Of a stretch of 64,000 nt of DNA, positions 1 to 41,361 are shown one piece after another. The translations under genes and the position numbers were made by a program. Positions within the stretch are counted from its first letter, which is position 1. Each line of letters opens with the position of its first letter. The stretch comes from Stachybotrys elegans. Its lineage: Eukaryota > Ascomycota > Sordariomycetes > Hypocreales > Stachybotryaceae. The stretch lies in NCBI GenBank assembly GCA_020746835.1, contig JAGPNK010000009.1, positions 558,001-622,000 on the forward strand, written 5' to 3'. The notes beneath the pieces were generated by a model. The model was not told where the DNA came from. It was given only the letters and a program-made list of their open reading frames with translations, and did no database searches.

Positions 1-1236
1 CCGGGGGGTGATGATTCAAGCGCTGGCTCACCGCTTCTTCCATTTTCCACAGGCCTGTTTATTTTCTCATGTGCTGCAGTCATCTTCACGTACAGCAGCG
101 CCTTGTCCTGAAGCGTTGCTGACGAGGGCTGAGAGATATGGTGTGTTTGAATGGAAGACACTGGGCGTTAGATTCGCAGCATCTCACCACTTGATATAAA
201 TATTCTTGACAAAACGAAGACCTCTCGGAACGAATAGACTCACTTCTGTCTGGCCGTTTCCAGCCTCGGGCTCGGCAGGCTGCTGTTCAAGGGGGGATTG
301 AGACGCCCCCAGCGTCTTCGTTTACGCTGGTATTCATTGAGGGTATAGAGTTTCTCAAGGATCAGTAGGTAAGCGCTGGCAAATGTGCCTTGGTGGCGGT
401 GTAGTTGAAAGGAAGAGAAAGAGAAAGAGAAAGGCAACGGAGAGGGCGAAGGCCTTCTTATGCGCATCTATCAAGCTCTTTTCTAGGGCTAGGCCTCACA
501 ATCACGCCTTTCTGGTCCAGCACAGCCATGGTACCATCCACGGCTATACCCATCATATGGCAAGTCGGGTTCTTCGTCATGAGCCCACACAGTCTAAAGA
601 CTTCCGCTGGCATCGCGGTACATGCAATATCCCGAACTCAGCGCATCGCTTTTACCATTTCATCGAACAATCATCATTGCGCGTACATAGTCAATAATTG
701 GTTCCAGACAACAGCACCTTCACCTCATAAGAAAATATACCAACAAATAGTACACACATACATCAAAGTCTACTAACCGCAAGCCCCCCTGACCATATAC
801 ACTTTTACTCTCGCTACTGCTGTTGCAGTCCCCTTATTGTTCTCTGGCTCTGGTCAACGGGTAGTGTCAATTGTATGCTGTAGGCTAATAATCCCTTTAT
901 TGTTTAAAGTTAACTCTACTCTTTAGTTCTGTAGGTAGTGGGTAACTATCATTGTTTGTATACATTATTGTTCTTTTATCCTCAGTCCACGTACCTACTC
1001 TAACATAAATATTCTTCAATATTGAATTATGGAGGAGCAAGTCCGAATCCTTTCTTCAAAATTTCCCCAGGCCTAATTTGTTGTTGTCGCCGAATGGGCT
1101 CGTTTGAGGTGAGACCGTTTGCTTATCACGTGACACGAGTCATACTTTGAGGCTATCCATAATCCGTGCAGTCTATGTTTCTGCCTGAAGCTGGTCATGC
1201 CAGATACCATTTGCAGCTGCGCAGCTTGCCCGAACA
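1..1236. other. Left-edge intergenic region, no confident gene
   Basis: I see no convincing gene here. Positions about 700-1030 are AT-rich and look like ordinary fungal intergenic DNA leading into the Cactin promoter. On the minus strand a short open frame (458-637) reads in a protein-like way but has no recognisable family and no clear upstream exon; it is discussed among the findings. The first 470 bases could hold the end of a neighbouring gene outside the window, but I cannot place it. Confidence 0.5.
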
Positions 1237-2990
1237 ATGGACTACAACCGCAGAGCAAAAGACTCGGCTCGCGCATCTCCGGGTGCACGCGATATCGCCT
1301 CGCCGAGATACGACCCTCACAACCGGATCTCCAAGCCCTCCCGCCCATCCGAGACCAAAGCCACCAGCAACCGAGCCAAGTACTTGACGCAGGACGAGCA
1401 GTCACGCCAGTTCGTAGCCGACGAGGACAAGTTCGTGCTGAAGCAGGCGAAGAAGAAGGCCGACATTCGGGTTCGCGAGGGCAGAGCGAAGCCCATCGAC
1501 TTTCTAGCCTTCAACCTTCGATATGTGGATTCCGACCGAGATGTCTTTGACGAAAGCGAGACGGACCTCACCATTGAGCTTTCCGATCCCACGAAATTGA
1601 TATCCGAACTGTCTCTCGATCAGTTGAAGGAGCTCGGGTCCGACATCGACTCATATCTGGTCCTTGAGACGGATTCTATGAACCTACGATACTGGAAGGC
1701 ACTCCACGCACTCTGCAAAGACCGAAAGGCCAAACTCGATCCCAGAGGCCACGAAGGCAGAGTTGTCAGCAGCGTCTCGGATGACATCGACCGTATCCTT
1801 GCGCCCAAGTCCTACACCCAGCTCGAGGCATTGGAGAAGCAGATCAAGGCCAAGCTTCGATCGGACGAGGACATCGACGCGGACTATTGGGAACAACTGC
1901 TGAGCAGCCTTCTAGTATGGAAGGCCAAGGCCAATATCCAAGAGATCTACAAGCAGATTGCGAGCCGGCGGGACGAGGAGTTGGCGAAACAGGGGCCAGT
2001 AGCTGGAGGGGCATCGAAGCAACAAGCCTCTGTCGGCCAGTCTTCGGGGGCGGCAGGCAAGACTTCGAGCATGGATACGCCGGCAGGCCCTCGCGCCGGC
2101 TTGTCCGATGCAGACAACGACGCGTCGCAGGAACCCAGCGCCATGTATGATCGCGAGGCGGCTCGCGGTATCTCTGAGAACGAGGAGATCTTCACGGCCG
2201 AGGAGGAGTGCGTCAACCACAAGCCGCAATGGGTCGACAAGTGGAAGCCTCGAAAGCCCAAGTACTTCAACCGCGTCCAGATGGGATACGAGTGGAACAA
2301 GTACAACCAGACGCACTACGATCACGACAACCCGCCTCCCAAAGTGGTGCAGGGATACAAGTTCAACATCTTTTACCCCGAGCTCGTTGACAAGACCAAG
2401 GCTCCCACCTACAAGATCTTCCGCGAGCACGGGAGAAAGCGCGGCGAGTCGTTTGCTGCGGCGGGCGAGGAGGATACATGCCTCATTCGCTTCATGGCCG
2501 GCGCGCCCTATGAGGACATTGCTTTCCGCATTGTCGATCGTGAGTGGGATTACAGCGCGAAGAGAGAACGAGGCTTCCGCAGTTCATTCGACAAGGTACG
2601 ATGGCTTTCCCTCGCCCCTCTCCCCTCTCCCCTCCCCCCCTCCATTCTCCATGTCCAGCTCGTCTAGCTATGCATGGCCTATATTCAGACGCATGTCGCT
2701 ACGTCCGACATCCAACCTTGCATACCACGGCAAGGGAGGATTTCCCAGTGCGGGCAATGATTTACGCGTTGCGTCAGGGATCATGGGCAACCACTCATGG
2801 CCAAGTGCCGAAGCACTCAAGCCACCCTTTCGCTATCTCCGTGAATATGACGCTAATCAAAGTTGACGTTGACAGGGTATCCTACAGCTACATTTCCAGT
2901 TCAAAAAGGTGGGTAGCAAAGCTACAGCAAGGCGCGATAATATTGTTTCACATTTCAACTAACGTGCTGCAGGTCTTTTACAGGAAGTAA
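1237..2990 (+). CDS. cactin: Cactin-family spliceosome-associated protein
   Basis: Nuclear protein of the Cactin family, which associates with the spliceosome and is needed for efficient splicing of a subset of introns. Three exons: 1237-2595, 2876-2908 and 2973-2990, giving 469 residues. Both introns are GT-AG; the second contains a CTAAC branch site. The C-terminal domain is very clear: it contains PKYFNRVQMGYEWNKYNQTH (about residue 346 on), then GYKFNIFYPELVDKTKAP, FMAGAPYEDIAFRIVDREW and, across the two small exons, GILQLHFQFKK plus VFYRK, the usual Cactin ending. The middle region (residues about 55-260) is the charged helical Cactin_mid segment starting near FVADEDKFVLKQAKKKADIR. The protein is shorter than animal Cactins because it lacks the long Arg/Ser-rich N-terminus, as expected in fungi. 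The ATG at 1237 is the first in this frame; an upstream coding exon cannot be excluded. Confidence 0.93.
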
Positions 2991-6089: not shown

Positions 6090-8316
6090 ATGGTGTTTCT
6101 ACGTCTCCCGTTGATGGATCCACAGATCCTTGACCTTGGCCCTGCTGAAAGCTACACAAGCTCTCTGCAGCCCGCGTCCAGGCACGGTCAATCTGCCCGG
6201 GCTCCGGAATTGGCCGAGAGCAGGTCCGTTTCCACGCTCTCGTCGGTCCTTTCAGAGGAAACCGGCCATCGGACCGAGACGGCAGTGGCTCTCATGACGA
6301 CTGAGCACGCCGAGCTTCCTCCCCTGCGCGCTGGGATTGCCTCTGATTCCATGCACATGTCTGGCTCGTCTGCCGCTGCAGACAACCATCAGGGCCCTCG
6401 GTATCCGCCTACAGCTGGCGTGGTTGATTGCAACTGCCCATGCAGCTGCAACGCCGCGTCGTCGACTGTTGACACTCCGTCCTCTTCCTCTGCCTCTTCC
6501 GACTCTTGGACTTCTCTGGATCAGAACCTTCACTCTCCTGCTGCCAGCTTCACTCCACTGCTTGAGGTCTTGCGCGCAGCCGGCACACCTAGTTCTGCCT
6601 CTGTTGTCGGTACCAACATCTGTACCTGTGGCGCTGACTCCCGTCTCAACATCGCAAACGCTCTCGACGCCGTCACGGCTGGCCAGGGAGAAGCTTCCGG
6701 CACAGGCCTTGGTATCTGCACCTGTGGTGCAGACTCCCGCATCAACGCAGCAAACGCCCGCAACACTATCGCGACTGGCAGCTATACAGCCTTCAGCAGC
6801 ACTCTCCGTCTTGCCTCTGCCATCGGCCTCGGCATCTGTACCTGTGGTGCAGACTCCCGCATCGCCGCAAACGCTCGCAACGCTGCTGCCACAACTGCCA
6901 GTCAAGAAGCTCCCGTCCCAGCCCTTAATATCTGTACCTGCGGCGCAGACTCCCGCATCAACGCAGCAAACGCTACCAGAGGAGAAGCTCCCGCCGCGAA
7001 TCTTGATATTTGTACCTGCGGTGCAGAGTCTCGCGCCAACGCAGCAAACGCTAGCAATTCTGTCACAACTGTTAGAGAAGAAGTTTCCATCACAATCGTT
7101 GATATCTGTACCTGTGGCGCGGCAAGCTCTCGCATCACCGTCACGGTTGACAGAGAAGAATCCTTCGGCTACTGCCCCCAGTGCATCGAGTGCTGCCGAT
7201 ACCTCTCAGAGTATCATTCCGACTCTTCTGATTCCGACTCTTCTGGTCCCGACTCTCCACCTGGTTCTGATACATCCGCCACCGATACCATGCCTGGCGA
7301 AGATCATGACGCCATGGACATGACAGGCTCTGATGCCATGGGGTCCAACCAAGCTTCTGGTGCTGGGGAGAGAGAGCACCAGGTCAGAGGCTCCTGCCAG
7401 CAGCTCGAAGGGCCCTACGCCACTCTGATTCACCGTGCCCTCATCAGTCAGCCAAACCACTCGATGACTCTTCAGGAGATATACAAGTGGTTCCGCGAGA
7501 ACACCACCAAGGCCAAGAAGAGCTACAAGGGCTGGCAGAACAGCATCAGGCACAACCTTAGCATGAACGCAGTAAGTCATCCAAACCCCTGACCCCTAGC
7601 CGCGGTCGAATGAATTTCTTTGCCCAGAGCGGCCAAGTACGCGAGCTCGAGTCCACGTGCTGACAGTTTCTTTCTCTCTCTCGCCATAGGCCTTCACCAA
7701 CCGGGATCTCTCAGGAAAGGAGAATGCCAAACGCTCAGCCGAGTGGGTTCTCGAGGACTGGGCTGTCTCGGGTGTCCAGAGCACCACCAGATATCGCAAG
7801 GGGGGACCTTCTCGCCGTTCGACGCGCAGGTCTCGCCAGCGCCCCTACCGCAGCTCCAAGGAGCGTACGCCTCGATGGATTACCGATACTAGCGTGATGC
7901 CTCCCTCTGCACAGGCTCCCGTCATGACAACACCATACCACATGACGCAGCCGTCTCTGCCTGTCATGTACTCGATGGATCACCAGGGATCTGCCAGGAG
8001 CGAGCTAGAGAGCATCCCGCACACGCCAGACCAGGCCATGCCTGCGTCAGTGCACCACTCGATGATTCTGCCCTCCAACGGACCTGCGGCTTGCAGCAGT
8101 GACTTTGCTGGCATCATGGCCATGTCTGCCTGTGGCGAGCCCGCCCAGGTGCCCATGGGTACTCTGTCGACATGCTTCCCCTATCCTGCGGGCGATATGC
8201 ATATGCAATATATCAACAGCCAGCAGGCGCAGGCGCAAGAAGGCGGGCTCATCGGCTCCATGTTTCTTAACATCCCTGACGGTGTATCTGGCTGGGAGGA
8301 GAACTCGCGGATGTAG
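6090..8316 (+). CDS. Forkhead (FOX) transcription factor with Cys-rich tandem repeats
   Basis: DNA-binding regulator. Exons 6090-7571 and 7690-8316 are joined over a 118-nt intron (GTAAGT...CATAG), giving 702 residues. The forkhead domain starts near residue 440 (GPYATLIHRALI), continues through QEIYKWFRENTTKAKKSYKG and reaches the recognition helix WQNSIRHNLSMN at about 483-494; the intron falls immediately after that helix. The wing region is basic (TTRYRKGGPSRRSTRRSRQR). Residues about 176-350 hold six copies of an ICTCG(A)xSR unit, with further CxC clusters just before (CNCPCSC) and after (CPQCIECC). A Ser/Asp-rich acidic stretch follows at about 375-400. The C-terminus is Met/Gln/Pro-rich, as in activation domains. 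The start at 6090 has a good context (CAAAATGG); an in-frame ATG at 6114 is a possible alternative. I do not recognise a named orthologue, and the repeat is not part of any forkhead architecture I know. Confidence 0.9.
6615..7142 (+). repeat. Coding tandem repeat, six ICTCG units
   Basis: Six units begin at about 6615, 6711, 6831, 6927, 7005 and 7101, spaced 96, 120, 96, 78 and 96 nt (32, 40, 32, 26 and 32 codons). The core reads [N/G/D]-I-C-T-C-G-A-[D/E/A]-S-R followed by an Asn/Ala-rich linker such as INAANA. Spacing is always a multiple of three, so repeat-number changes keep the reading frame. The Cys-Thr-Cys core is retained in every copy while the linkers vary. Confidence 0.92.
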
Positions 8317-14409: not shown

Positions 14410-16029
14410 CTAGAATTTCCGCTTCTTCTTCGCCGGTCCTGCGGCAGCCTTCTTCTCCAACTCCCGCTTCAGCTCGTCTCGTTTGCGGTCAGCACGCTCT
14501 TGTGATGTCTCCCTCTGCTTCTGCTGTGTAATATCGGGCTCCAGAGGTCGATCTCGTTGACGTCCTCGATCCACGTCTGCTAAAGAGGCATTAGACTCCC
14601 CCCCTGCTTGCTTTCCAATCACACCGAGCTTCTTCGGTGTAGGCAAGGAACTCTTGGTCACATCTCTCTCTGTCGGGGGTTCCGGGGTCTTCGATTTCTG
14701 TCGGGGCGCCGGCGCTGGCTTTCTTCCACCTATCTGGCCAAGACCCCCCTTGCGTTGGGCAGGCTTTGGTATTGGTGGCGGCGAAGAATCGACTGGTATG
14801 GCAGCGGCAATATCGTCGTCTGCTTCAGAAGCCGTTTCAGAATCATTTCCTAAGCCTTGAGTCTTGTCCTTGGGTCGCGAAGCAACCGGCGGCGATGGCT
14901 CCTTAGGCTTCGCAGTTGGTTTCTTGCCAATAGCTCCGAGCCTTGAGGCGGACGTTTTTGATTCAGGCCTTGGCTCAGATGTAGCTGCGATTTTCGTCTT
15001 CAGACTGTCGAGTACGACTGGATCGTCTTCGTCTTCGGTCGAGGCGTCGTCTGGCAGAACAGGCTGCTTCCCTATAGTATGTTTCCGCTTAGAAGAAAGG
15101 TGGGGAGGTGTCGCTTGTACTTGAAAGTCGTCGTCCTCGTCCATTCGCTCCGACTTGTCCTGGGACGGTTCCGGCCTCTTCTCTTCCTCTACCACTTTTG
15201 GTTGCGTCCGGATAGGTACGTGCGAGAGGGTTTTGAAATCGCGCCACCATTCGTCCAACTCGAGAGAGCTTTGAATCTTCATGGTCGTTTGGGCCGGCAC
15301 GCCGCAGCCTCCAAAGATGTCGTGGATGAGATGCGTCACACTGGCCGGCTCGGAATGCTCAGCGTCAACATGGTCCCGCCATCGTCTTTGGTTAAATGGA
15401 GCCAAGCCGGCTATCTTGTCCTCGGCAAGCGACCTTGTGACCTTCTTACCAGAGAGCGCATTAAAGACATGATCTAGCCCTACTCCCACGGCCTCGAGTT
15501 TGTCCAGCAGCTTTGAAAGAACAGCATCCTTCTGCGCCAAAGCCTGAACTAGAGACTCGACCTCCAGGTTTCGAGAGTAATGCGCTTGCGCAAGAGGTAA
15601 TATGAGAGCTGTGGCGATGGCTGATGGGGAGGCTTTCCTCAGGTGAAATGGCCATTTCAAAGGTTCGAGACCTACGAGATGACAGGATACTCGTAAGGTA
15701 AGTCCATCTTCTCCGGCATCCTTAGGCTCTGCAGGGGAAAGGGCGAGGCTGGTTGAATCATGGCCTGGTTGCGAGGGGTCAAGAGCCGAGTGAATGCTGG
15801 TGAGAAATTTGGCCATGTTTTCAGGGGTATCGCTCGGGTCGATGCTTGTGTTTTCGCTCCAGCCACGCATACAGATCCCTTTGCGATCCATAGTCTCTGA
15901 CCAGATGTTGGCCATATCTGTAAGGTTGATAGTGTATGATGCCCCTCGGATATCAATGGACACAAGGAGCACAGGCGTGCCGGGAGAAGAATCTACTGGC
16001 AAGGGATGCCATCGCGGACTGGATGTCAT
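14410..16029 (-). CDS. nej1: XLF/Nej1-like non-homologous end-joining factor
   Basis: Predicted partner of the ligase IV-Lif1 complex in non-homologous end joining in the nucleus. Single exon, 539 residues. The N-terminal head domain (about 1-140) shows the fungal XLF pattern, with LLVSIDIRGASYTINLTDMA and NIWSE near residues 21-45. A helical stalk follows (about 145-200). The remaining 340 residues are polar, charged and probably disordered, as in other filamentous-fungal XLFs, which are much longer than yeast Nej1 or human XLF. The last residues are KKKRKF: a basic cluster ending in Phe, resembling the Ku-binding motif at the XLF C-terminus. The tail also holds a repeated LGxIG(K/G) motif. 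The gene diverges from the photolyase gene across 1.4 kb. I judge family membership from the head domain and the ending; the gene name follows the yeast factor. Confidence 0.82.
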   Translation of the reverse strand: MTSSPRWHPLPVDSSPGTPVLLVSIDIRGASYTINLTDMANIWSETMDRKGICMRGWSENTSIDPSDTPENMAKFLTSIHSALDPSQPGHDSTSLALSPAEPKDAGEDGLTLRVSCHLVGLEPLKWPFHLRKASPSAIATALILPLAQAHYSRNLEVESLVQALAQKDAVLSKLLDKLEAVGVGLDHVFNALSGKKVTRSLAEDKIAGLAPFNQRRWRDHVDAEHSEPASVTHLIHDIFGGCGVPAQTTMKIQSSLELDEWWRDFKTLSHVPIRTQPKVVEEEKRPEPSQDKSERMDEDDDFQVQATPPHLSSKRKHTIGKQPVLPDDASTEDEDDPVVLDSLKTKIAATSEPRPESKTSASRLGAIGKKPTAKPKEPSPPVASRPKDKTQGLGNDSETASEADDDIAAAIPVDSSPPPIPKPAQRKGGLGQIGGRKPAPAPRQKSKTPEPPTERDVTKSSLPTPKKLGVIGKQAGGESNASLADVDRGRQRDRPLEPDITQQKQRETSQERADRKRDELKRELEKKAAAGPAKKKRKF

Positions 16030-17454
16030 TATGGACGCGGTGCTGGGAGAGCAAGCAGCACTTGGGTGCTATATGAAAATAGCAACGCACTTCCGCTCTC
16101 TGTAGCGGTCGGGATAAGAAATTTTCCTCCTTTTCGCGAAAAGCTGATGCCTGTGGTGTACCAGCGCCGTTAGATGTCGTGGAAAGGCAGGGGGCAATCC
16201 GCTTCAGACTATGCCAGAATGTGTTGCCAAGCGCCCAGACAGGATATCTGAATGAGTTGGCTGTAATCTAGTACAATGAAGAGCGCAGAAATTGGCACAG
16301 GGTTCACTCATTCCTCCTTCTTCGTCGAGGAAAATGCGATGGCATGGCTGAACAGTGCCGCCCAACGGTCGCCCAAGCTGAGAGATGAGCCGTATGAGAC
16401 AAGAAAGATACTGCCTGAACAGTGGGATGGTCGGAAGTCTCTCTTTTATGCTTGGATAACGGGAAGAGCTTGCGAGCGTGAGCGGAAGAGGGGGATCGAG
16501 TGAATGAAGTCGCGGTAATGATGATATGATGAGATGGAATTGATTGCTGGAAACGCGTCGCGCAGCTTGATCGCAAACCGGGGCTAGTACTTCGTTCTAC
16601 CTTCAAACACTAATAAGCTCAGGCTACCACAAGGTACCTTGTGGGTTCTTGCAGCTGACTGTGGTGGCCTGAGGTAAGAAGACTTTGTTTGCCTAACAGG
16701 GCTGGAACTGCAGGTGCTTTCTTGCAAGAAATGGTCCTTGCCGATGCAATCAATACCCTGGCATGGTAATTTACAATCAATTGATCACACCACATGAGAC
16801 GGCCTGTGTTCCGCAATCTTGCATGATTCCATACTTTGCAGCTTGAACTTAAATCTCAGCTAAGGTTGCTGGTGGACTGAAGCGCAGGTGTGTACGTCAT
16901 AAGATGTACATCAGTACTACAGTCTGTAGATTAGAGGTATGGAGGTCATTGGAGCTAGGCCTGATATCCCAGGAAGAAAATGAAGCTGAACATACAACTA
17001 CCTAGGTACCTTCCGGATACAAGGTGCCTACTAGGTACAGGTATTACTGCCCGGCAGCTTAGTTGACAGAAAGCAACACAAGGTCTCATAATCCCGTCTC
17101 TCCATTGGGCGCTTCCCTCCCGCCCTGTTCCTGACTGCGACGGCAGCACTGTGTTCCGTCCAAGCCACCAAATCGCAGGATCTGCCCTTTAGCGCCTATT
17201 CTCCGATCTCCATTGTGGCCATGATGCCCGCTGGATCGGCACCTTCGTCGCCCTTGACACCAGCTTGTTCGGTATTGCTGGCAGAGGCTAAGCTGCCACC
17301 CGCGCTGGCGTTAGCCATGCCTTTTTGCGTCCGGCTGTCCGGCGCATGGCCTGTCGCACGTCAGGGCCTAGGAGGTACCTACGAGCTCTTGCCTGGGTGA
17401 GGCCTTCGCACCTGTTCTCACCTGTCCTTCCACCCACTTCACATATGTGATTCC
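16030..17454. other. Divergent intergenic region between XLF and photolyase
   Basis: About 1.4 kb with no supportable gene. It must contain both 5' leaders and promoters. Pieces such as CTAGGTACC recur (for example near 17001 and 17030), but I cannot assign a regulatory site with confidence. Confidence 0.5.
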
Positions 17455-19406
17455 ATGATTGTCGCGCACCAAATATTGAGACGCGCACCATCAATCTCCC
17501 CACGAATTGCTCATCCTAGCTTCTTCTTGTCCAACACTCGAGCCCCCTACGCTATCGTCCTATCTGCAAGATTCCACGTCATGCCTGCCAAGAGAACCAA
17601 GCGCAAGTCCCCGGCATCCCCAGAGACAAGCAATGGCAAGAAACCGAAGATACAGAGCGATTCCGGCGGCCTTCGCCAACCGCACCCTCTCGCCCACGAG
17701 GCTGAGGAAAACGGCATCGTCCTCCGCAAGTACTACCCGCCAGAGATGAGCAACGCTCGCGCTCGCGCCTACAATACCAACGAGCTTCCCCGACCTATGC
17801 AGGACCTGGACTCTGCATTGGATGACACAAAAGAAGCTCGGCGCAAAGTGAAGCCACGAAATGCCGTCGTTCACTGGTTCAAGATGGACCTCCGGACCGA
17901 GGACAACACGGCCCTCTCCAAGGCCAGCGATATGGCCAAGGAGGCTGGTGTTCCTCTCATCTGTCTGTACATCATCAGTCCTCAAGACTTTGAGGCTCAC
18001 CTGACAGCGCCCGTCCGAGTCGACTTCATGCTTAGGACGCTTCGCGTCTTGAAGGATGATCTGGCCAAGCTCGATATTCCGCTCTACGTCGAAACCGTAG
18101 AGAAGCGAAAGAAGATCCCAGATAGGATCCTGGAGCTTATGGAGGAGTGGGGTGCCAATCATCTCTTCGCCAACATTGAGTACGAGGTCGACGAGCTTCG
18201 TCGCGAGGCTCAGATGGTGCGAGATTTGTCAGAAAACGGCAAGTCGTTCCAGGTCTTCCACGACACCTGCGTCGTCCCTCCAGGAGAGCTTCAAAGTGGC
18301 TCTGGCAAGCAGTACGCCGTCTACACCCCCTGGTTCAGAACTTGGGTGGCTCATCTTCACGGGAATGAGCATCTCCTTGACCTCTATCCAGCCCCCAGCA
18401 AGAATCCAGGCACCGCCAAGAAGAATTTCAAGGAGCTCTTCGACTCTGATATCCCAGATACTCCCAAGAATAAGTACCTGACCGACCAAGAAAAAAAGCG
18501 ATACCGTCCGTACTGGCCATGCGGTGAGCATGAAGCAAAAGCCAGGCTCGCCAAATTTTGCGAAGAAAGGATCGGAAAATATCACAGTAACCGAAACATA
18601 CCATCGAATAGCGGAACGTCTTCACTCTCCGTTCATCTCGCAAGTGGTACCATCAGTGCTAGGACATGCGTGCGGACAGCCAGAGACAGGAACAAGACGA
18701 AGAAGCTAGATGGCGGCAACGAGGGTATTCGGGTCTGGATCAGTGAAGTCGCTTGGCGGGACTTCTACAAGCATGTCCTCGTCAACTGGCCCTACGTCTG
18801 GTATGTCACTTACAATGCGTGCCCGCAAACTTGAAAGGTAACTAACGCTATAACCCCAGCATGAACAAGCCATTCAAACCCGAATACTCAAACATCAGTT
18901 GGTCGTACGACAAAGAGCATTTCGCCGCTTGGTGCGAAGGCCGGACAGGCTTCCCCATTGTCGACGCCGCAATACGCCAAATGAACCAGATGGGGTATAT
19001 GCATAATCGCTGCAGAATGATTGTCGCCTCGTTCCTGTCCAAGGATCTCCTCATTGACTGGAGGATGGGTGAGCGATACTTCATGGAGCACCTGATTGAC
19101 GGTGACTTTGCCAGCAACAACGGAGGTTGGGGCTTCAGCGCCAGCGTAGGAGTTGATCCGCAGCCCTACTTTCGCATCTTCAACCCCCTCCTCCAGAGCG
19201 AGAAGTTCGATCCTGACGGCGAGTACATCCGCAAGTGGGTGCCGGAGCTGAAGGACATCGAGGGCAAGGCCATCCACGAACCATACAGCCGAGGCGCTGG
19301 GAGTAAGGCCAAGAAGAACGGATATCCGGAGCCTATCGTAGAGCACAAGGAGTGCAGGGAGCGAGCGTTGAGCGCCTACAAGCAGGGCATCGAAATCGGC
19401 ATGTAG
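17455..19406 (+). CDS. phr1: Class I CPD DNA photolyase
   Basis: Flavoenzyme that uses blue or near-UV light to split cyclobutane pyrimidine dimers. Exons 17455-18800 and 18860-19406 are joined over a 59-nt intron with CTAAC near its 3' end, giving 630 residues. The N-terminal alpha/beta antenna-chromophore domain begins near residue 133 (NAVVHWFKMDLRTEDNTAL), and the FAD-binding helical domain fills the C-terminal half, with GIRVWISEVAWRDFYKHVL, TGFPIVDAAIRQMNQMGYMH, NNGGWGFSASVGVDPQPYF and FNPLLQSEKFDPDGEYIR. The first 42 residues are Arg/Ser-rich without acidic residues and look like a mitochondrial presequence. An in-frame ATG at 17581 (MPAKRTKRKSP) opens a basic, nuclear-localisation-like segment. 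Dual nuclear and mitochondrial targeting is therefore plausible, as known for yeast Phr1. Family assignment is firm; which start is used is inference. Confidence 0.95.
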
Positions 19407-20327: not shown

Positions 20328-20715
20328 TTTGGCGGTGTTAGGAGGATGTTCTTGACGTGGTCTGGGTGGGTTGTTGAACGTGGTTTGAAGTCGTCGCAGC
20401 GCTTGGTGGGATACAGAAAAGTTCCCTCTAGAATTTGGTGTGGTTCAATAATTTCGTGGGGCGGGGAGGGCTTCTGTAAATCATGTGACATATCACGTGA
20501 CAGCGTGTCCTTCTCGTGGCGCGGGCAGTGGCGTTTTGGATGCTGGCTTATCGAGCGCCTGCTTATCATGTTGAACACGCCCTTGAACCTGTCGGACGGT
20601 GATGAGACCAGGTCTGGCAGTCGCTGCCCTGAGAAAGCTCTCTACACAGGTCTTCCGTCATGAAGCTGCTTTCTTGCAATGCAAATATACCGCCAGCGGC
20701 CGCACAAGTGCCACC
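20328..20715. promoter_or_regulatory. Compact divergent promoter region of RPS21 and SLX4
   Basis: 388 bp separate the two start codons. It contains the near-palindrome CATGTGACATATCACGTGAC (about 20481-20500), with a CACGTG E-box core at 20494-20499. E-box-like elements often occur at fungal housekeeping promoters; which gene it serves is unknown. Part of this stretch is also an open frame continuous with SLX4 (from 20599). Confidence 0.5.
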
Positions 20716-23379
20716 ATGGCACTACCTGAGATCATACAGTCATCGCCCCTGGGCATTGCTCCACGCGACGTATTTTCGATCGAGTCCTCCTCGCCCGGTC
20801 TGCCCTGTGTAGATGACATAGTATCGAGAACAACTGCAGGCGGTGCGAAAGGATCGGCGGGCGTCGGTAATACGGAGAACAATTCGGAAACAAGAAGCCC
20901 GTCGGGCCCTCGTTTTATTCAGAATCACGGAGAGGACGGGTCGCGCAACATAGTCTTGCAAAATACTGCAGCCGATGGGGAGGAACCATCTGTTTTGATC
21001 GTGGAGCGATCATCCAAGCTGAAGTCGAAAGCACGGAAACCAAAGAAGGAAAAAGCAGCACCGAAGAAACCGAAAGCCCCGACGAAGAAGGCCACCCAGG
21101 CTGCGGAATCTGCAGACACAACGAAAGAGCCAGTGCCCAAAAAGACAAGGGTGAGGAAGAAAGCCCGGAGCAAAACGGTCGGGGATGGAAAAGATGACGA
21201 AAAGCTGGCGGTGGCGGAAGCCTCTGATGCTGGCCAAGAGATGGATGCGACTAGCAAACACTTCGCCCGTGATATCGAAACTCCCGACAAAAAGGCAGAA
21301 AAGACGCCAATAGAGCCGCTTGGTCTTGAATTCGCTATGCCCAGAAGACTGGACTGGACACCTCCTACTGCTAAAGCGCCGATTGTCATAGATACGTCAT
21401 CACAGGCAGAAGAGCTACGGTCTCCAGGGCAGGATGCCAGCCGACAACACAGCTTTGGCGATCTCTTGAGTGCTTATGGGTGTGCGGAACACGCCCAGTT
21501 ATCAGGCGACAAGCCAGACGACGCTTCTGCGCAATCTGTGCTCAAGAAGCGCAAGCTCGTCGAGTTGGTCACAGTCAAGCAAGCTGGGGACAACTCGGGG
21601 CAGACTATCTTGGAGAAACCAGCCATCAAGAAGAAGGCTGTAAGGAAGAAACCACAGACAATCACAGCTCTTGCTACTGCAGCTTACAAGGTCACTACTC
21701 CGCCAGAAGCAGATGGCCCCTCCGCATCATTACTCGATTACTTTCCGCCCGCGGCCAATGACGATGATGGCTCAACAGCCACAAAGAAACCGAATGCTAA
21801 GCCTCGGAAACGGACAGCGAAGGCTTCAAAAAAGAAGCCCGAACCACCCAAGCCCATACTGTTATCTCCTACCACGGCACTTCGACAGGTTGCCAATCAG
21901 GATTATGTCTTTGGAACCTCAAGTCAGCTTGCGCGAGAGCAATCGCCTTCTATCCTACGGGACATCCAGGCGGCTATCAAGGCTTCCAACGAAATTAACA
22001 CGACCATGTTTGACGATTTACCCAACAGCGACGCCGTTGAGATAGCAGAATCGCGACCGAAGCTCTGGGGTGCCGGCGCTCGAGACGCAGAGGGCGATTT
22101 ACTTGATCTTGAGATCATCGACCTTGTGGATCAGTCACCACAATTACCACCCCAAAGAAGCGAACCTGACCCCTTCGGCTACTTTGGTAAGGAGGAGGGT
22201 TCTGTGGCTGGCGGTCTGCACAATGCAAATGCCTCGCGTGAAGGAGACGACTCGTCTCTCATTTTGTCCGATGTCCTACTTCCTCCCCCACGTTTCTTAT
22301 CAAGACGAGCTCTTGAAACTGCGACATCCCCCGTGATTCTGCCGCAAGCGGACTTGGGGAAACCAGACGTGCCAGCTGCAGCACCCGGAGAAGCTTTGGA
22401 TACGATACAGCATGGCGAGGTCGGCCCAGCAGCTCAGGCTCATAGTCATGCTCCTGACACTCACGACGAAGCGCCTCCACGTCCCGATTATGATCTTTAT
22501 ACAGATGCCCAGCTGTCGCGCGAGGTGACCAAATTCGGGTTCAAGCCTGTCAAGAGACGGAACGCCATGTCGGCTCTGCTGGATCAGTGCTGGCAGAGTA
22601 TGGCTCGCGCAGGCTCACGAGGTGGTGCCGCCGCAGCGACGTTTTCCACGTCTACACCCGCAGCCAAGGCAAGGGTTGCTGGCTTACCACGGGATCAAAG
22701 CGCGGTCAATCGCACAGAGCCTGTTTTTAGCGATGGTAGCGACATCGAAATCCAAGAGCCGCCGCCCTCTGCGCAGCCACCACCAGCCTCGCCGAAGCGG
22801 CCAAGAGGTCGGCCGAGAAAGGATGCCACCAGCCCGTCGAGCACTAAGCCGAAGAAAGCAGCAGCCACTAAGAAGAAGAAGGCCGCCTCCCCCCGAACGC
22901 CACCCAAAGCTGGACGAGCCAAGTCACCCAGGAAGTCGCCCGTGGTGGTGGTGGAGATTCCAGACTCGGCTTCAGACGATGGCTTCTCCTCTGACTCATC
23001 GCTGTCCTCGGTCGACGAGATCTTCTCCTCACCCAACGGCGTGGATGTGTCGATTTCCACGACAGAAGGCAGCGAGTTACCTTTGAACGCAATGGCGATA
23101 GACCAGTCCCAAGAGGCGCTCATGGCCTGCATCACCAAGGCCGTGACGTCAGCACCGCGCAGCACTGACACGTCCAACCCGTCCTGGCACGAGAAGATGC
23201 TTCTATACGATCCGATCGTGCTGGAGGATCTAACAGCATGGCTTAATTCAGGCCAATTGACGCTTGTGGGCTACGACGGAGAGGTTAGCCCCGGGGAGGT
23301 CAAGCAGTGGTGCGAGTCGAAGAGCATCTGCTGCCTCTGGCGCGTCAACCTGCGCGGCAAGGAAAGGAAGCGGTTTTGA
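20716..23379 (+). CDS. slx4: SLX4, scaffold subunit of the SLX1-SLX4 structure-specific endonuclease
   Basis: Nuclear scaffold that activates the SLX1 nuclease on branched DNA such as stalled forks and Holliday-like junctions. Single exon, 887 residues from the ATG at 20716, chosen for its strong context (CCACCATGG) and because fungal SLX4 proteins begin with a segment like IIQSSPLGIAPRDVFSIESS. The middle is basic, Lys/Pro-rich and disordered. Around residues 589-625 lies the conserved fungal helical block DAQLSREVTKFGFKPVKRRN followed by ALLDQCW. An AT-hook (PRGRPRK) is at about 696-702. The C-terminal SLX1-binding domain occupies roughly the last 60 residues (LYDPIVLEDLTAWLNSGQL, then VKQWCESKSICCLWRVNLRG). 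The frame is open for 117 nt further upstream to an ATG at 20599, so a longer form is possible. Confidence 0.93.
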   Translation: MALPEIIQSSPLGIAPRDVFSIESSSPGLPCVDDIVSRTTAGGAKGSAGVGNTENNSETRSPSGPRFIQNHGEDGSRNIVLQNTAADGEEPSVLIVERSSKLKSKARKPKKEKAAPKKPKAPTKKATQAAESADTTKEPVPKKTRVRKKARSKTVGDGKDDEKLAVAEASDAGQEMDATSKHFARDIETPDKKAEKTPIEPLGLEFAMPRRLDWTPPTAKAPIVIDTSSQAEELRSPGQDASRQHSFGDLLSAYGCAEHAQLSGDKPDDASAQSVLKKRKLVELVTVKQAGDNSGQTILEKPAIKKKAVRKKPQTITALATAAYKVTTPPEADGPSASLLDYFPPAANDDDGSTATKKPNAKPRKRTAKASKKKPEPPKPILLSPTTALRQVANQDYVFGTSSQLAREQSPSILRDIQAAIKASNEINTTMFDDLPNSDAVEIAESRPKLWGAGARDAEGDLLDLEIIDLVDQSPQLPPQRSEPDPFGYFGKEEGSVAGGLHNANASREGDDSSLILSDVLLPPPRFLSRRALETATSPVILPQADLGKPDVPAAAPGEALDTIQHGEVGPAAQAHSHAPDTHDEAPPRPDYDLYTDAQLSREVTKFGFKPVKRRNAMSALLDQCWQSMARAGSRGGAAAATFSTSTPAAKARVAGLPRDQSAVNRTEPVFSDGSDIEIQEPPPSAQPPPASPKRPRGRPRKDATSPSSTKPKKAAATKKKKAASPRTPPKAGRAKSPRKSPVVVVEIPDSASDDGFSSDSSLSSVDEIFSSPNGVDVSISTTEGSELPLNAMAIDQSQEALMACITKAVTSAPRSTDTSNPSWHEKMLLYDPIVLEDLTAWLNSGQLTLVGYDGEVSPGEVKQWCESKSICCLWRVNLRGKERKRF

Positions 23380-35349: not shown

Positions 35350-38300
35350 TTATTTGGAAGTAAACGGCATACCCATGCCGGTCATCGATGAGGAGAACTC
35401 GCTTGGCTGAGGCTGGCTCGTAACATCCTTCTTGGCTGGCTTCGTCTTGGGCCGTGGCGCGATAGGCCCAACTCGCTGTTCAGCTGCTACCTGCGCAGCC
35501 TTCTTCGCAGCAAGTGTCGCCTTTCGCTTTTCCACCGCGCCGGCCATGTTGCCATTCGCCCACCGGCCTGGGAGCATGTTAGCATTGCTATTATACTTGT
35601 AGGGAAAGGGGGACATGGGCGAAGCTCACTCTTCATCGAAGCCGACATTTTCTCCGACTTGGTCATGGATTTATAGTCCTTGCCCTCTTCGCCAGCCGGC
35701 TGAGAGCTGGGAGTGGCGTTGCGGCTCTCCCCGGCATGGTTGTTCAAGCTGTTGCGCACAACCTTGATCTTCTGTACCTTGCGTGCAGCTGGGTTCAGGG
35801 ACACCTCCGGAGTGGCATAGTCAGGCGGACCACCTGCGTCTTGCTGCGGTCCATTCCGCTTGCCGCGTTTCTTGGCAGGAGCCTGATCCTGCGCCTCAAG
35901 ATCGTCAGGATCATCGCGGAACCTCTTCTGGCGCTTGGGTCGGAACGAGTACGATGATTCTGCCGTATGAGAAGTCGAATCCGAAGCGGAGCTGGATGGC
36001 CGGGAATCGCCATTATCCGTGATGGCCGACGTGGGCTCGCTGAAGTTCTTGCCCTTGGGGATCTTTAGTGTCAACAGGTGACGGCGCGGCTGCTTGGGCT
36101 CTGGCGGGACCACGTCATCCTCCAGATGGAACATGTCGTCGTACTTGACGACCTGTTGCTTAGTCCGTGCTCGACGCCCCCGGGCAGACTCCTCCTCTGC
36201 CGGTTCACTGGTAGGAGCGAGGTCTTGGACGATGTCAGGGACGGCTGCCCTAGATCGAGGGATTCGCTTGCGCCTTCTGGGTGCGCCATCCTCCGCATCG
36301 GATTGCTGGTCAGCATTAAAGCTGGACGTAAGGTTGGGATACTCGTCGGCGTCAGCATTCATGTTGCGTCGTCTCCTCCCGCGGGTAGGGACAGGCGTGG
36401 AGCTTCGGCTCACATCCTGCGTCGCGGGGTCGAACAGCTGGACCGGCTTTCGCTGTCGCTTGCCCGTCACTTCATCTGCCTCGGTGGCCTTGGCTGTCTG
36501 GCGGGGCTGGTTACGCAGAGATCTGCCACGCGTCATGATGCCCGCTTGCTGCGTGGCAGGGTTCTGACGGCCAATCTTGGATGGGTGAGGGTCGTACTCG
36601 AAGCCGTAAGTAGCAGCCATGATTCGATCCTGACTCTGAAGATAGCGTGTCTCGCTCATGACCTCCCTCTCCTTCGCCTTGTAACCCTTCACCGCAAAAT
36701 CGGGCTCCTCATAGTTCACGCCGTGCTGGTGAAGGTTACGCGTGCGAGACTCGTACTTGCTGTCGGCTGCGCGGCGACGAAGCGAGTTTTCGTAGTCGTC
36801 CACGACCTTGTTCAGCCCGTTCCACTCCTGTTGCCACTGGACCATTGAGAGATTGATGGCCTCGAGCATGTCGTAAAGTTCCTTGGTCGACATGTCCTCG
36901 TAGTTTTCCAATGCGGAAATGTACTCTTCGGGGTCTCGAAGTTTGCGATACCGGAAATACCGTTTTCTACCTGGTGGCTCCTGGGACTCGGAAACTTCGA
37001 CTTCGTCAGGCTCATCTCCTACTGGCGCAGGGGAGTTGAAGGCGGTAGGATCAGTGGATTCGGGTACTGGCGACCCTCTGAGAGGGGTGTTGAGAGCTGG
37101 GGTAGGGGCCTCGGCGGCGAGTGCGTCGGGCATATCGTCATTGTCTTCCACAAGGGGCTCCATATCGGCCGCATCTTTGTCGACCTCCTTTTCATCTGGG
37201 GTTTGTTCCTCCGACGGAGCATCGTCCTCGGGGTGCACCGATTTCTCAGGGTATGTCGAGAACTCTCCCTCAACGTAGGGTGTTAGATGAGACCATCGAC
37301 CTTCTGGAACAGGCTGTGGCTTCGTCCACCTGGACTGCTGGATGACCGGATGCTGGGTTGCGCCTTCTGCTTCTGCGACAATGTCTTTGGCAACTTCAGC
37401 ATCCATACCTTTGGGTTGAACGGATGGCTCGCTCGGCAGATCCTCGACAGGGGGAATCATTGCAGCCGTCTTCTCTTCGGTTGCCACCTTCTCTTGAGAA
37501 ACGTCAGGCGAAACAGCTCTAACAGTCGGTGGAGATGGGGGGACTGGTTCGGTGTTGATATCAGCACCGTCATTCGCCTCCTCCTTGCCGGGCTGCTCTT
37601 CGTCGATGTCCATCGGATCAGCCTCGGCATCAACATTAACATGAACATCGGGTTGGGGTTCGATAGCTGGCTGGTCATCCGTGCTGGGAGCCACGTCACC
37701 CTTGGTGGCATCCGACGCTTCGGGAGCATCAGATACCGACTTCTCCTCTGGTTGCACGACGGGCACCTCTTCCTGCTTCTCCGCAGGAGCATCCGCCGGG
37801 GGAGCTTGAGGCTCGTTATTAGGCTCCTCCCGAGACTTGTCGAGATCATTCTGCGGCTCTTCCTGAGTCGAAGTGGTGGTCTCTTCTTGGATTGGATCCT
37901 GGCGAACTAACTCCTCTGCTTTGTTGTTTGCTTTGTCAGGCGCTGGGTCCTGGGCCACTTCGTCAACTGGACTCTTTGTTGCATCTGAGATAGGTTCCGG
38001 GACCTCAGTTTTAGGCACATCCAGTTCTTCCAATTGAGGTACAGGCTGTGCCACCTCTTGGAGCCCGTCTGTGGTGTTCTCTTGTGCAACCTCCTCTGAA
38101 GGTACCTCAACCTCCTCAGAGGGCGCTGCTGCCTCATCCTGGGACGCATTGAACTCCTCGGCCACTTTAGAGTCCTCAGCAGCCTTCTGGGCAATTTCCT
38201 CAGCGACTTCTTGGGCGACCTCTTGTGATGATTGCTGTGCCACTTCCATAGCCACTTCGCGAGCCTCTTCTTGAGCGTCCTTCAGCGCCAGTTCCTGAAT

Positions 38301-39803
38301 TTGCTGCTTGTCTAGGCCGTTCTGCTTCGTGACAACTTCCTCGGCAAGCACCTCCTCTTGCTTGGGAGCTTCGGGCTCGGTAGTAGTCTCTGTAGCGATT
38401 AACGGTTGAGGCTCTTCATTGGCTTCTTTCTTCATCATCCCCCTTGCAACTTCATTGACGAGCTCATTGACAACCTCTGTAGCGATGTCCTCTGGGATCT
38501 CGGTTGTTATCCCATTGATGACTGCTTCAACAGTCTCGGCAACGTCAAACGGCGGACTGGACATATTTTCCAAAACGTCTTGCACAGCTTCGTGGACCAG
38601 ATCCTTATCCCTCACATCAGCTACCACTTCGGCCTCCACAGGGGGTTGCGGATTGGCTGTCACGTCGGTTTCCTTATCGGTTTCCAACGGGGTTCGGTCG
38701 GCCACCAAAGGAGCCTTTTGAGCTTCATGAGTTTCCTGAGTTTCTTGTAGATTGCCTTGGGGGGCATTTGGGGCCTCTGAGATATCTTGCGTGTGAATCA
38801 GAGTGGTGTCTGGTTTGGGTAACTTTGAGTCAAAATCAGTGGCGGGAACTTCCGCGGCAACAGCCTTGTCAGACTCTGGCTTTTCAGTCGTGATAAGGTG
38901 TGAGTCTGAAGTGTCCTGGGGCGCCGGGGCTGTTTCTGCCTTGACATCTTGGGCGACATGGTTTTCGGAAGCAACCAGAGGGATGTTGGCAGGGGAATGC
39001 GCGATGTGATCAGACACTTGAGGCTCGCCAGATTCAACAGGCTGAGCAGGCTGGGGATGCTCGAGAGTGGTGGTTGGGGCGGGCACGACAGCTTCATATT
39101 TTGCATCCGTGGCAGTGGGTGTTGGTGATTGTGGAGCCGGGGGCGGCTTTTCCGGGGTAGGCGTGTCATTGGCTTTGCTGGCACCATCAATCTCAAGGTC
39201 GGAATATGAGACGCCAACCTCGATGGTATCCTGGACGTCGTTGTCGTCATCCTCGAGCTCTTCTCTATAGAGCCTGCTGGTTTCAACCGACTTCCGGGAG
39301 GGATTTCGACGCCTGCTGTTTTGCGTCTCCGCGCCGATAGAACTGCCTCTCCTCTTGGAGACGGAGCCGTAGAAATCTTCGCCGTCATAGACCTCGGACC
39401 TGCGTTTCTTTCGCGAGGCCGAGGTGGAGTTGGGGACGACGACCTCGTCGTCAATGTGCTCAAAGGTGTAATCGACACGGGCGCGCTTGCGAAGGGTGTG
39501 GCCGCCCTTCTTAGGGCCGTCGTCCTCTTCGTCATCGTCCATCACGTCGTAGTGATCCGTAGTCTTGGACCGCTTCTTCATCTTGAGACTGCTCTTGGGA
39601 ACCGGGGTGGAGAAGGTGTATGCGTGCTGCAGGACCTTGCTGCCACGACGGGCCTGATGAGCGGTCTGGGGAGTGTTTGCGGAATGCGACATGACGGGAC
39701 TCGTCGACGGCTGATGCTCAAACGACAGCTCCGACGTGGGCTGGGGGGAAGCAGGAGCGCCCTGTGGTTTGCGGCGCCCGACAGTCCGGCGAACGCGCTC
39801 CAT
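35350..39803 (-). CDS. Large acidic low-complexity, probably nuclear protein, function unknown
   Basis: I do not recognise a named family. Two exons on the minus strand: 39803-35630 and 35567-35350 (intron 62 nt, GTGAGC...CCCAG), giving 1463 residues. The N-terminal 180 residues are basic with nuclear-localisation-like clusters (KMKKRSK, SRKKRRSE, SRRRNPSRKS). The middle 700 residues are dominated by Glu, Ala, Pro, Val and Gln with many PEST-like stretches and a heptad-like run of EVAQEVAEEIAQ. After about residue 970 comes the only well-structured-looking part (EEYISALENYEDMSTKELYD, MVQWQQEWNGLNKVVDDYEN, GYKAKEREVMSETRYLQSQD), followed by Arg/Lys-rich segments and a short basic tail in exon 2. 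The layout suggests a chromatin-associated scaffold, which is inference. The ATG at 39803 (MERVRRTVGRRKPQ) is preferred. The frame stays open upstream to 40109, but that extension is hydrophobic and Leu/Pro-rich, unlike the rest, and is probably 5' UTR. Confidence 0.8.
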
Positions 39804-41361
39804 GATGGGCACGAGGGACGTCAGTGGTGAGGAGGGAGATGTAAGAGAGAGAAGGGGGACGGGCGAGGCTTCATCCGGAACAAGACAATGAATGAACCGC
39901 AGGCCAAAGGGGAAACAACAAGGTGCAGAGGTATGGGCAGTGGTAAAAGTGCGGAAGCAGCCGCGGCGCAAGGCGGCGAGGACAACGCTCAAGACACGAC
40001 GAATGGGGAGGATTATGTGTAAAGGTTTGCGTGGTGTGTCAAGGAAGCCAAAAGTGCGTGTATGTGGTGTGTGTGAGCGTGTCAGAAATGCGAAAGTTTT
40101 TTGAATCAAGGGGACAATAAAAGATCAACGGCAAAGAAGCAACCGAGTTTTGCACAGCGCCGACAACAAGGGAACCATCAGATTGAACAGCAGACACGTG
40201 GAGGCGGGGAGCAGAAGAGAGGGAGCCGTCAAGGAAAAAAAAAAGGTGAAAGGTTGTCTGGCAGCTGCGAGGCGGGATTAGAAGCCAGCCGATGAGGTTG
40301 AAGGCGAGGCGAAGAGAATGTGAGCCAGCGCTGAAGTCTCCTTTAGCCTCGCACCCTCAGCCAATTCAAGTCGCGAACCGACCCTGTCCTACGCCTGCGT
40401 CCTTGGGTGTGGATTTTTCGAGGTGTCGTGGTCCGAATAAGCCAGAGAGGCCCCCTTTGGGCCCCATCCTGCAGCGGCACAGGGCCCTGTAGAGGGGGAC
40501 TCTGCTCGTGGGTACCTCCAGTCCCCCGAGCTGGTGGCGCTGCCCCGGCGTCGCTTGCTGTCAGGTACCTCTGTCCCAGGTACCTGTTCCCCGGCCACGC
40601 CTCTCCGCCCCTGCCAGCCAGCCAATCAGCGGGGAGTCCATCGCCGCTAGACCTGCACTGGCAGCATGTATTGTGCTCCATCCAGTGGATAAGGTGAGAT
40701 AGTCCACAAGCATGACAATACCACTTGTACTTAGGTTGACGATGACCAGAAAATGAATTGTTGCCCTATTGACAAACCCATGAGCAGTCTGATTCATGCT
40801 TCTCAATGAGAAGCGCCGCTAGGGATGCTGCACCATGCATGCATGAATGCATGCATTTGATGGCCTTGCTTCAGCCGAGGGACGGCAAGAATGACAGCAC
40901 ATCTCTTGGATTCATGTAATAAGATTCATCATTTATATCGCAGCTAGAGGAAAGACATGTCCAAGCACACCATATTATATTGGCACTTCATCTCCTTCCA
41001 GTGTCTCCGAGCAACTTATTCTATCCATACTTACATCAATACGGATACGCTCATCTGCCATGGCGGTCCCGTCCTTTCTCTCTGCTGCATAAAATAATGA
41101 TGAACCCAATGCACCGTAGATGCACTTGTCCAACCTCCCCTCTAATAGCACTGCACCGCCTAATGTACCAAAACCCACCCCTTCCATGCTATCCCATTCC
41201 AGCAAGACCACCTGCAGCGCAACGCCTGGACCAAAGCTAGAGCAACCTTCCCCCACCAACCTCCCTCGTTCCATCTCGAACTCCATCCTGCATTTCTCTA
41301 CATTCCTCAACCAACCGGGCCCGATCTTCATCTTCTGAAGCTCAAGCTCCCTGCCTGCACC
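39804..41361. other. Divergent promoter region of the large acidic gene and MTC1
   Basis: About 1.6 kb with no supportable gene. It contains a palindromic ATGCATGCAT-GA-ATGCATGCAT element at 40835-40856 and repeats of the word GGTACCT/AGGTACC near 40510-40590. It should hold the leaders of both neighbouring genes. Confidence 0.5.

Follow-up and report, generated by a model that had tools for sequence, protein, structure and literature searches.

A six-copy Cys-Thr-Cys repeat in the N-terminal arm of a FoxE2/FhpA-family forkhead protein of Stachybotrys elegans

The forkhead gene and its surroundings

The window analysed here is a 64,000-nucleotide stretch of contig JAGPNK010000009.1 of Stachybotrys elegans, a hypocrealean fungus of the Stachybotryaceae, within a genome of 43.4 Mb in 61 contigs. 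It contains a forkhead gene of two exons split by one GT-AG intron (7572-7689), and the two-exon translation is identical, letter for letter, to the 702-residue NCBI protein B0I35DRAFT_410424 (P0001), which is named a hypothetical protein of S. elegans and is known from one member sequence on one contig. The Pfam forkhead model scored 74.3 bits on this protein against a cut-off of 27, and a scan at E values up to 1 found no domain besides Forkhead. The forkhead domain and the repeat described below thus lie in the same protein, as the earlier note had proposed from the DNA alone. The closest solved forkhead structure covers residues 442-519, and in each of 45 solved-structure matches the best stretch lay at residue 416 or later, in the forkhead domain and its edge.

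Sequence comparison identifies the gene as the S. elegans representative of FoxE2/FhpA, a family of fungal forkhead proteins. SS1G_05834 (P0021) of S. sclerotiorum is entered in a review table as foxe2 and credited there with a function in apothecial development (PMC7168625). FoxE2 is described as the orthologue of Aspergillus FhpA, the loss of which abolishes cleistothecia in A. nidulans (PMC11875336), so that both accounts give relatives in this family a role in sexual fruiting (PMC7168625, PMC11875336). The S. elegans genome has five Pfam forkhead matches in four places, two of them adjacent pieces, and a one-way search with P0021 placed the present gene first among all genomic matches (E 4.5e-21; next match 7.6e-9), with 68% identity over P0021 residues 207-266 compared with 30% for the next forkhead. 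SS1G_05834 and the FhpA proteins of A. nidulans and A. flavus share with the S. elegans protein a forkhead domain followed by a GVQSTTRYRK-like stretch. The pattern GV[Q/E]S[T/S]T[R/K]YR, a family mark observed in the present comparison rather than a published definition, follows the forkhead domain in 147 of the 157 homologues listed and reads GVQSTTRYR in S. elegans.

The open frame of a cactin gene ends 3.4 kb upstream of the forkhead gene on the same strand, and cactin and forkhead domains are annotated within one protein in three homologues (P0025, P0076, P0084). This suggests a conserved cactin-forkhead gene pair, seen in other species as fused annotations only; the three gene models could be mistaken, or the two genes could be transcribed together. 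Elsewhere in the window, three DNA-repair genes (XLF, DNA photolyase and Slx4) lie close together between 14413 and 23376, and a 1545-codon open frame on the minus strand (35490-40124) has no Pfam match.

Table 1. Positions of the features discussed in the text, numbered from the first nucleotide of the window
Feature	Position	Strand	Basis
Cactin gene, open frame	1189..2664	+	Pfam Cactin_mid 2.7e-64, CactinC 7.7e-51
Forkhead gene, exon 1 (residues 1-494)	6090..7571	+	ATG at 6090, frame open to GTAAGT at 7572
Upstream cluster CNCPCSC (C114-C120)	6429..6449	+	Translation
Copy 1, 32 aa, core NICTCGADSR	6615..6710	+	Translation and repeat search
Copy 2, 40 aa, core GICTCGADSR	6711..6830	+	Translation and repeat search
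Copy 3, 32 aa, core GICTCGADSR	6831..6926	+	Translation and repeat search
Copy 4, 26 aa, core NICTCGADSR	6927..7004	+	Translation and repeat search
Copy 5, 32 aa, core DICTCGAESR	7005..7100	+	Translation and repeat search
Copy 6, core DICTCGAASSR, one residue inserted	7101..7133	+	Translation
Downstream cluster CPQCIECC (C362-C369)	7173..7196	+	Translation
Forkhead DNA-binding domain (residues 442-517)	7413..7758, intron inside	+	Pfam PF00250, E 8.8e-21
Forkhead gene, exon 2 (residues 495-702 and stop)	7690..8316	+	Acceptor CCATAG ends at 7689
XLF	14413-16068	minus	Pfam scan of neighbouring frames
DNA photolyase	17401-18831	plus	Pfam scan of neighbouring frames
Slx4	20587-23376	plus	Pfam scan of neighbouring frames

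The repeat array and constraint on its core

Upstream of the forkhead domain, the hexapeptide ICTCGA occurs six times, starting at nucleotides 6618, 6714, 6834, 6930, 7008 and 7104 (first residues 177, 209, 249, 281, 307 and 339). The copy-to-copy spacings of 96, 120, 96, 78 and 96 nt, every one divisible by three, and the cysteine clusters on either side of the array agree in the translation with what the earlier note had reported. Its core consensus, [N/G/D]ICTCGA[D/E/A]SR, describes copies 1-5 and fails at copy 6, where an extra residue gives ICTCGAASSR. A longer block, ICTCGA[D/E]SRxNxANA, is common to copies 1, 2, 4 and 5; it is one residue short in copy 3 (RIAANA) and missing from copy 6, the most divergent of the six. 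The array was detected by an ungapped repeat search; Tandem Repeats Finder, run with the default score threshold of 50, did not report it.

The region is unusual in composition as well as in pattern. Residues 108-375 (6411-7214) hold 20 cysteines, one histidine and no lysine in 268 residues. Nine CxC motifs occur within residues 1-441, compared with a mean of 0.94 and a maximum of 6 in 2000 shuffles of that segment, and in the same shuffles the most frequent 6-mer never exceeded four occurrences, against the six observed. Between the array and the forkhead domain, a separate 15-bp tandem repeat of 2.7 copies (7216-7256) encodes a Ser/Asp run, SDSSDSDSS.

Summed over the 15 pairs of copies, the ICTCGA codons show 36 differences at 65 synonymous sites (pS 0.55) and none at 205 non-synonymous sites, and the non-synonymous count stays at zero whichever single copy is dropped. 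All five variable nucleotide sites in the 18-nt core fall at third codon positions of the plus-strand frame, which, together with spacings in multiples of three, supports this frame as the translated one. A minimum of six changes is required, and the probability of all of them being synonymous lies between 2e-4 and 9e-4 for transition bias (kappa) of 1-8; as copy pairs are not independent, this minimum-change calculation is the sole test, and the pN/pS values that follow are descriptive. The nine-codon core ICTCGAxSR gave a pN/pS of 0.10 or 0.14 across the six copies, depending on which copy-6 residue is counted as the insertion, and the block after the core gave 0.65 in copies 1-5. For the linkers, values of 1.05 (hand alignment) and 1.09 (right-anchored) resemble the mean of 1.06 for shuffled registers, so that the linkers may be neutral or impossible to align; they show no detectable constraint.

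Since the core lacks amino-acid differences while the linkers show no constraint that could be detected, selection appears to hold the whole motif and not the cysteines alone. Protein-level selection on ICTCGA is well supported by these codon counts. The earlier note's picture of an invariant CxC with drifting linkers survives this analysis, and the core codons, compared between copies, show nothing like the dN/dS near 1 that it had named as contrary evidence for comparisons between species. Its further suggestion that selection acts on the cysteines in particular does not, as I, T, G and A vary no more across the six copies than the two cysteines do. Synonymous divergence between copies is about 0.8 per site (Jukes-Cantor, from a pS of 0.49), which speaks against a recent origin of the copies. 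Duplication or gene conversion in recent times is disfavoured as the source of the uniform core, because either would keep synonymous sites alike too.

The same pattern bears on whether the array is real. With a single known sequence, a gene-model or assembly artefact might be imagined, but the annotated protein equals the translation exactly, the frame is open throughout, the spacings are multiples of three and the core varies at third codon positions only. The copies also differ from each other and so are not plain assembly duplicates, and we regard an artefact as exceedingly improbable. A 317-codon stop-free frame runs antisense through the whole repeat on the minus strand (6252-7205); it is probably a by-product of composition, as the core varies only at plus-strand third positions.

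Distribution of the repeat among relatives

Homologues were collected with residues 100-620 of the S. elegans protein (120 listed of 417 matches) and with the S. chartarum protein (120 listed of 947), giving 157 distinct proteins in total. CTCG occurs in one of the 157, the S. elegans protein itself, and this absence from the 156 other homologues listed sets it apart from the FoxE2/FhpA relatives compared. Any CxC was found in 7 of the 157 and, within the N-terminal part, in 4 of 139 parsed proteins (18 of the 157 were unparsed or too short). A database search with residues 108-380 returned only this protein at E values up to 10 among 7992 candidates scored, all of them 0.55-1.75 times the query length, a range in which small or very large motif carriers could be missed. 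Within the S. elegans genome, an exact degenerate pattern search and a six-frame protein search found the motif nowhere but in this gene, and among the papers listed by searches of an open-access library none bore on a forkhead protein with such repeats.

The repeat therefore looks lineage-specific in these comparisons, and the FoxE2/FhpA family works without it, given its absence from all other homologues listed. The idea that it is a conserved module of forkhead proteins, for which the earlier note had named absence from all orthologues as decisive, is refuted by the sequences compared; a lineage-specific module under selection stands.

The nearest relative, P0002 of S. chartarum (a cluster of three member sequences, of which one was compared), lacks the repeat. 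It has two CxCxxC motifs, C50-D-C-R-I-C55 and C64-G-C-L-N-C69, just upstream of a tryptophan aligned with W140 of S. elegans. As this pair lies at about the position of CNCPCSC, a cysteine cluster appears to be common to both Stachybotrys species and the repeat does not. The two species pair in a tree of the forkhead region (55 rows, SH-aLRT 97), which was used for this pairing only, three own-genome paralogue rows being faulty and disregarded: all had extreme branches, and one had a nonsense reading that most likely came from the wrong strand. A CNC is present near the same place in Metarhizium P0120 and absent from its relatives P0121 and P0123, and this loss argues against strict constraint on the cluster near the tryptophan.

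A distribution limited to one species among the homologues listed, linkers free of detectable constraint and forkhead regions only 71% identical between S. elegans and S. chartarum (109 columns) are what would be expected if the repeat were a neutral or weakly constrained expansion in the disordered tail of a fast-evolving regulator, with no function of its own. Such an expansion does not fit the contrast within the core, where third positions vary and the ICTCGA amino acids are identical in six copies, and we consider it improbable.

Other hypocrealean FoxE2/FhpA orthologues (P0011, P0045, P0082, P0134, P0148 and others) carry SPxSPxxW, followed about 30 residues on by a motif that is mostly [IVF]CTPxS; the TP and SP of this pair suggest kinase sites. 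In the 27-sequence alignment, copy 1 stands opposite the CTPxS motif, and CTP precedes the forkhead domain in 13 of the 26 other rows, mostly as [IVF]CTPxS. Of 140 parsed proteins (17 of the 157 were unparsed), 25 carry CT[PC] N-terminally, the S. elegans protein among them. We built a profile from 22 relatives selected on this motif, CTP in 21 and STP in one, and checked it on the motif-less P0023 and P0097, which scored 45.0 and 29.5. On the S. elegans protein the profile placed the W140 region in register (residues 121-155) with a score of about -0.5, compared with up to 10.4 for shuffles, and the match stopped short of copy 1. A 13-residue matrix ranked copy 1 second within its own protein, and the top score there was reached by 426 of 1000 shuffles. 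A pattern defined post hoc, S...W with [ILVF]CT after 20-45 residues, occurred in 5 of 5000 shuffles, and [ILVF]CT anywhere in 546. With neither profile nor matrix supporting homology of copy 1, an origin of the repeat from an ancestral ICTPxS was set aside and is kept as a lead only.

Possible roles of the array

AlphaFold2 modelling with the 27-sequence alignment gave a well-folded forkhead domain alone, with pLDDT below 50 at nearly all of residues 10-436, and the N-terminal arm is accordingly predicted to be disordered. When the isolated array (206 residues) was modelled without relatives, beta strands were obtained that terminate at the CTC cores or continue into them, with a mean pLDDT of 62 and a pTM of 0.67, as if the units formed a folded beta-repeat with one strand-turn-strand hairpin per core. 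The alignment-based model has no strands in the array and a pLDDT below 50 almost throughout, and a PDB fold search with the isolated-array model found nothing at E up to 0.001 (best E 1.4, TM about 0.2). On these grounds the strands are a probable artefact and a folded beta-repeat is very improbable; the paper behind this judgement leaves open its extension to imperfect repeats, as here.

A repeated motif in a disordered arm could serve as a docking site. ICTCGA[D/E]SR would then bind one partner, such as a co-activator, kinase or import factor, with six copies supplying avidity and the cysteines contributing to the contact surface, free of metal. This is the main rival to the reading we prefer, and it accounts equally well for conservation across the motif, where all of ICTCGA is invariant, as are S and R once the extra copy-6 residue is set aside. 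The predicted disorder, spacers of no fixed length or sequence, which suit a beads-on-a-string arrangement, and the CTP motif at a comparable place in half of the other aligned relatives are also in its favour. It leaves unexplained the two flanking cysteine clusters and the S. chartarum CxCxxC pair, and its link to CTPxS runs up against the failure of profile and matrix to support copy 1 as a homologue. We take docking seriously as a possibility without expecting it to be correct.

We tentatively favour instead a multivalent cysteine module gained in one lineage, in which paired CxC units and the flanking clusters provide a metal, Fe-S or redox input that changes how the forkhead protein behaves. 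The constrained core (0/205 against 36/65), the excess of CxC (nine against 0.94), the S. chartarum CxCxxC pair and the disordered arm are all consistent with it. The disordered N-terminal arm would have gained ICTCGA[D/E]SR in the S. elegans lineage and multiplied it sixfold in the stretch between the two flanking clusters, where cysteines are denser, with selection keeping the motif and the spacers free to drift in both sequence and length. Paired CxC units, together with the flanking clusters, could bind Cu(I), zinc or an Fe-S cluster through their thiolates; by analogy with the regulators described below, a four-thiolate site could arise from two CxC units or from one unit combined with a flanking cluster. 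Since residues 108-375 contain a single histidine and no lysine, a bound metal would depend on thiolates almost entirely. Reversible disulfides are an alternative to metal sites. Occupancy or oxidation might compact the arm and so alter how the forkhead domain engages DNA, its partners or the nucleus. Binding of a ligand, a conformational switch and a link to fruiting-body development are each inferred here, and the metal or redox reading is plausible. Equal conservation of I, T, G and A counts against this reading and also fits a docking motif. Against metal binding, each unit has only two cysteines and units lie 26-40 residues apart, whereas known copper motifs are far tighter. Of the 34 open frames listed in the neighbourhood that reach 180 codons, 20 were scanned, and no copper-related Pfam name appeared among them. 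The genome has two Copper-fist matches at other sites, so the fungus probably has the usual copper regulators.

Metallothioneins are small proteins of very high cysteine content; the S. elegans protein differs from them in its length of 702 residues, its 20 cysteines among the 268 residues of the region and its lack of a Pfam match. In Hsp33, CxC and CxxC are spaced by 27-32 residues, and the pattern CxC-X27-32-CxxC is absent from the S. elegans protein. Copy 6 and the downstream cluster do provide one Hsp33-like pair (C340-T-C342 and C362-P-Q-C365), but with 19 residues between the CxC and the CxxC and no Hsp33 Pfam match. The two motifs are described in the Hsp33 redox switch (PMC7423844).

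Short cysteine motifs serve as inputs to the fungal metal-sensing regulators Ace1, Mac1 and Cuf1 (PMC4992176), and the S. elegans protein resembles Ace1/Amt1, Mac1 and Cuf1 in carrying CxC motifs on a DNA-binding protein (PMC4992176, PMC13343922). It differs from these copper regulators in having no Copper-fist domain (Pfam, E up to 1), and the REP patterns CXCX4CXCX2CX2H of Mac1 and CXCX3CXCX2CX2H of Cuf1 found no match in it. A parallel in layout comes from HapX, Yap5 and Php4, iron-responsive fungal regulators that, like the array, have several separate short cysteine regions in one protein; in HapX, four [2Fe-2S] regions are described as filling cumulatively, and in Php4 two cysteines are described as providing a site for a bridging cluster (PMC12390756). 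The HapX regions have four cysteines each, compared with two per S. elegans unit and four in each flanking cluster, and these proteins have another DNA-binding domain and differ from the six near-identical copies seen here. Redox cysteines in forkhead proteins are not new in principle, as FOXO4 is described as a thiol redox sensor with functional cysteines outside its DNA-binding domain (PMC13404206, a review). The review's account of FOXO4 differs from the S. elegans case in describing three single cysteines that form disulfides with partners, with no mention of a repeat (PMC13404206).

A bolder version, which we consider unlikely, is that the arm works as a six-unit thiolate counter, each ICTCGADSR being half of a metal or Fe-S site and occupancy, rising in steps with supply, tying fruiting-body development to metal or redox state. 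If true, no earlier example of a repeated metal- or thiol-sensing module on a forkhead protein would be known within the literature searched, and the module would have arisen in one fungal lineage from an arm that already held a few cysteines. Each copy serves as a control for the others, the amino acids of ICTCGA being identical throughout and synonymous sites of the core having changed.

Much functional change in transcription factors is thought to reside in their disordered arms, and we know of few cases in which a new motif is seen multiplying and coming under selection. If the array binds metal or responds to oxidation, this would be a case of one lineage equipping a conserved developmental regulator with a sensor.
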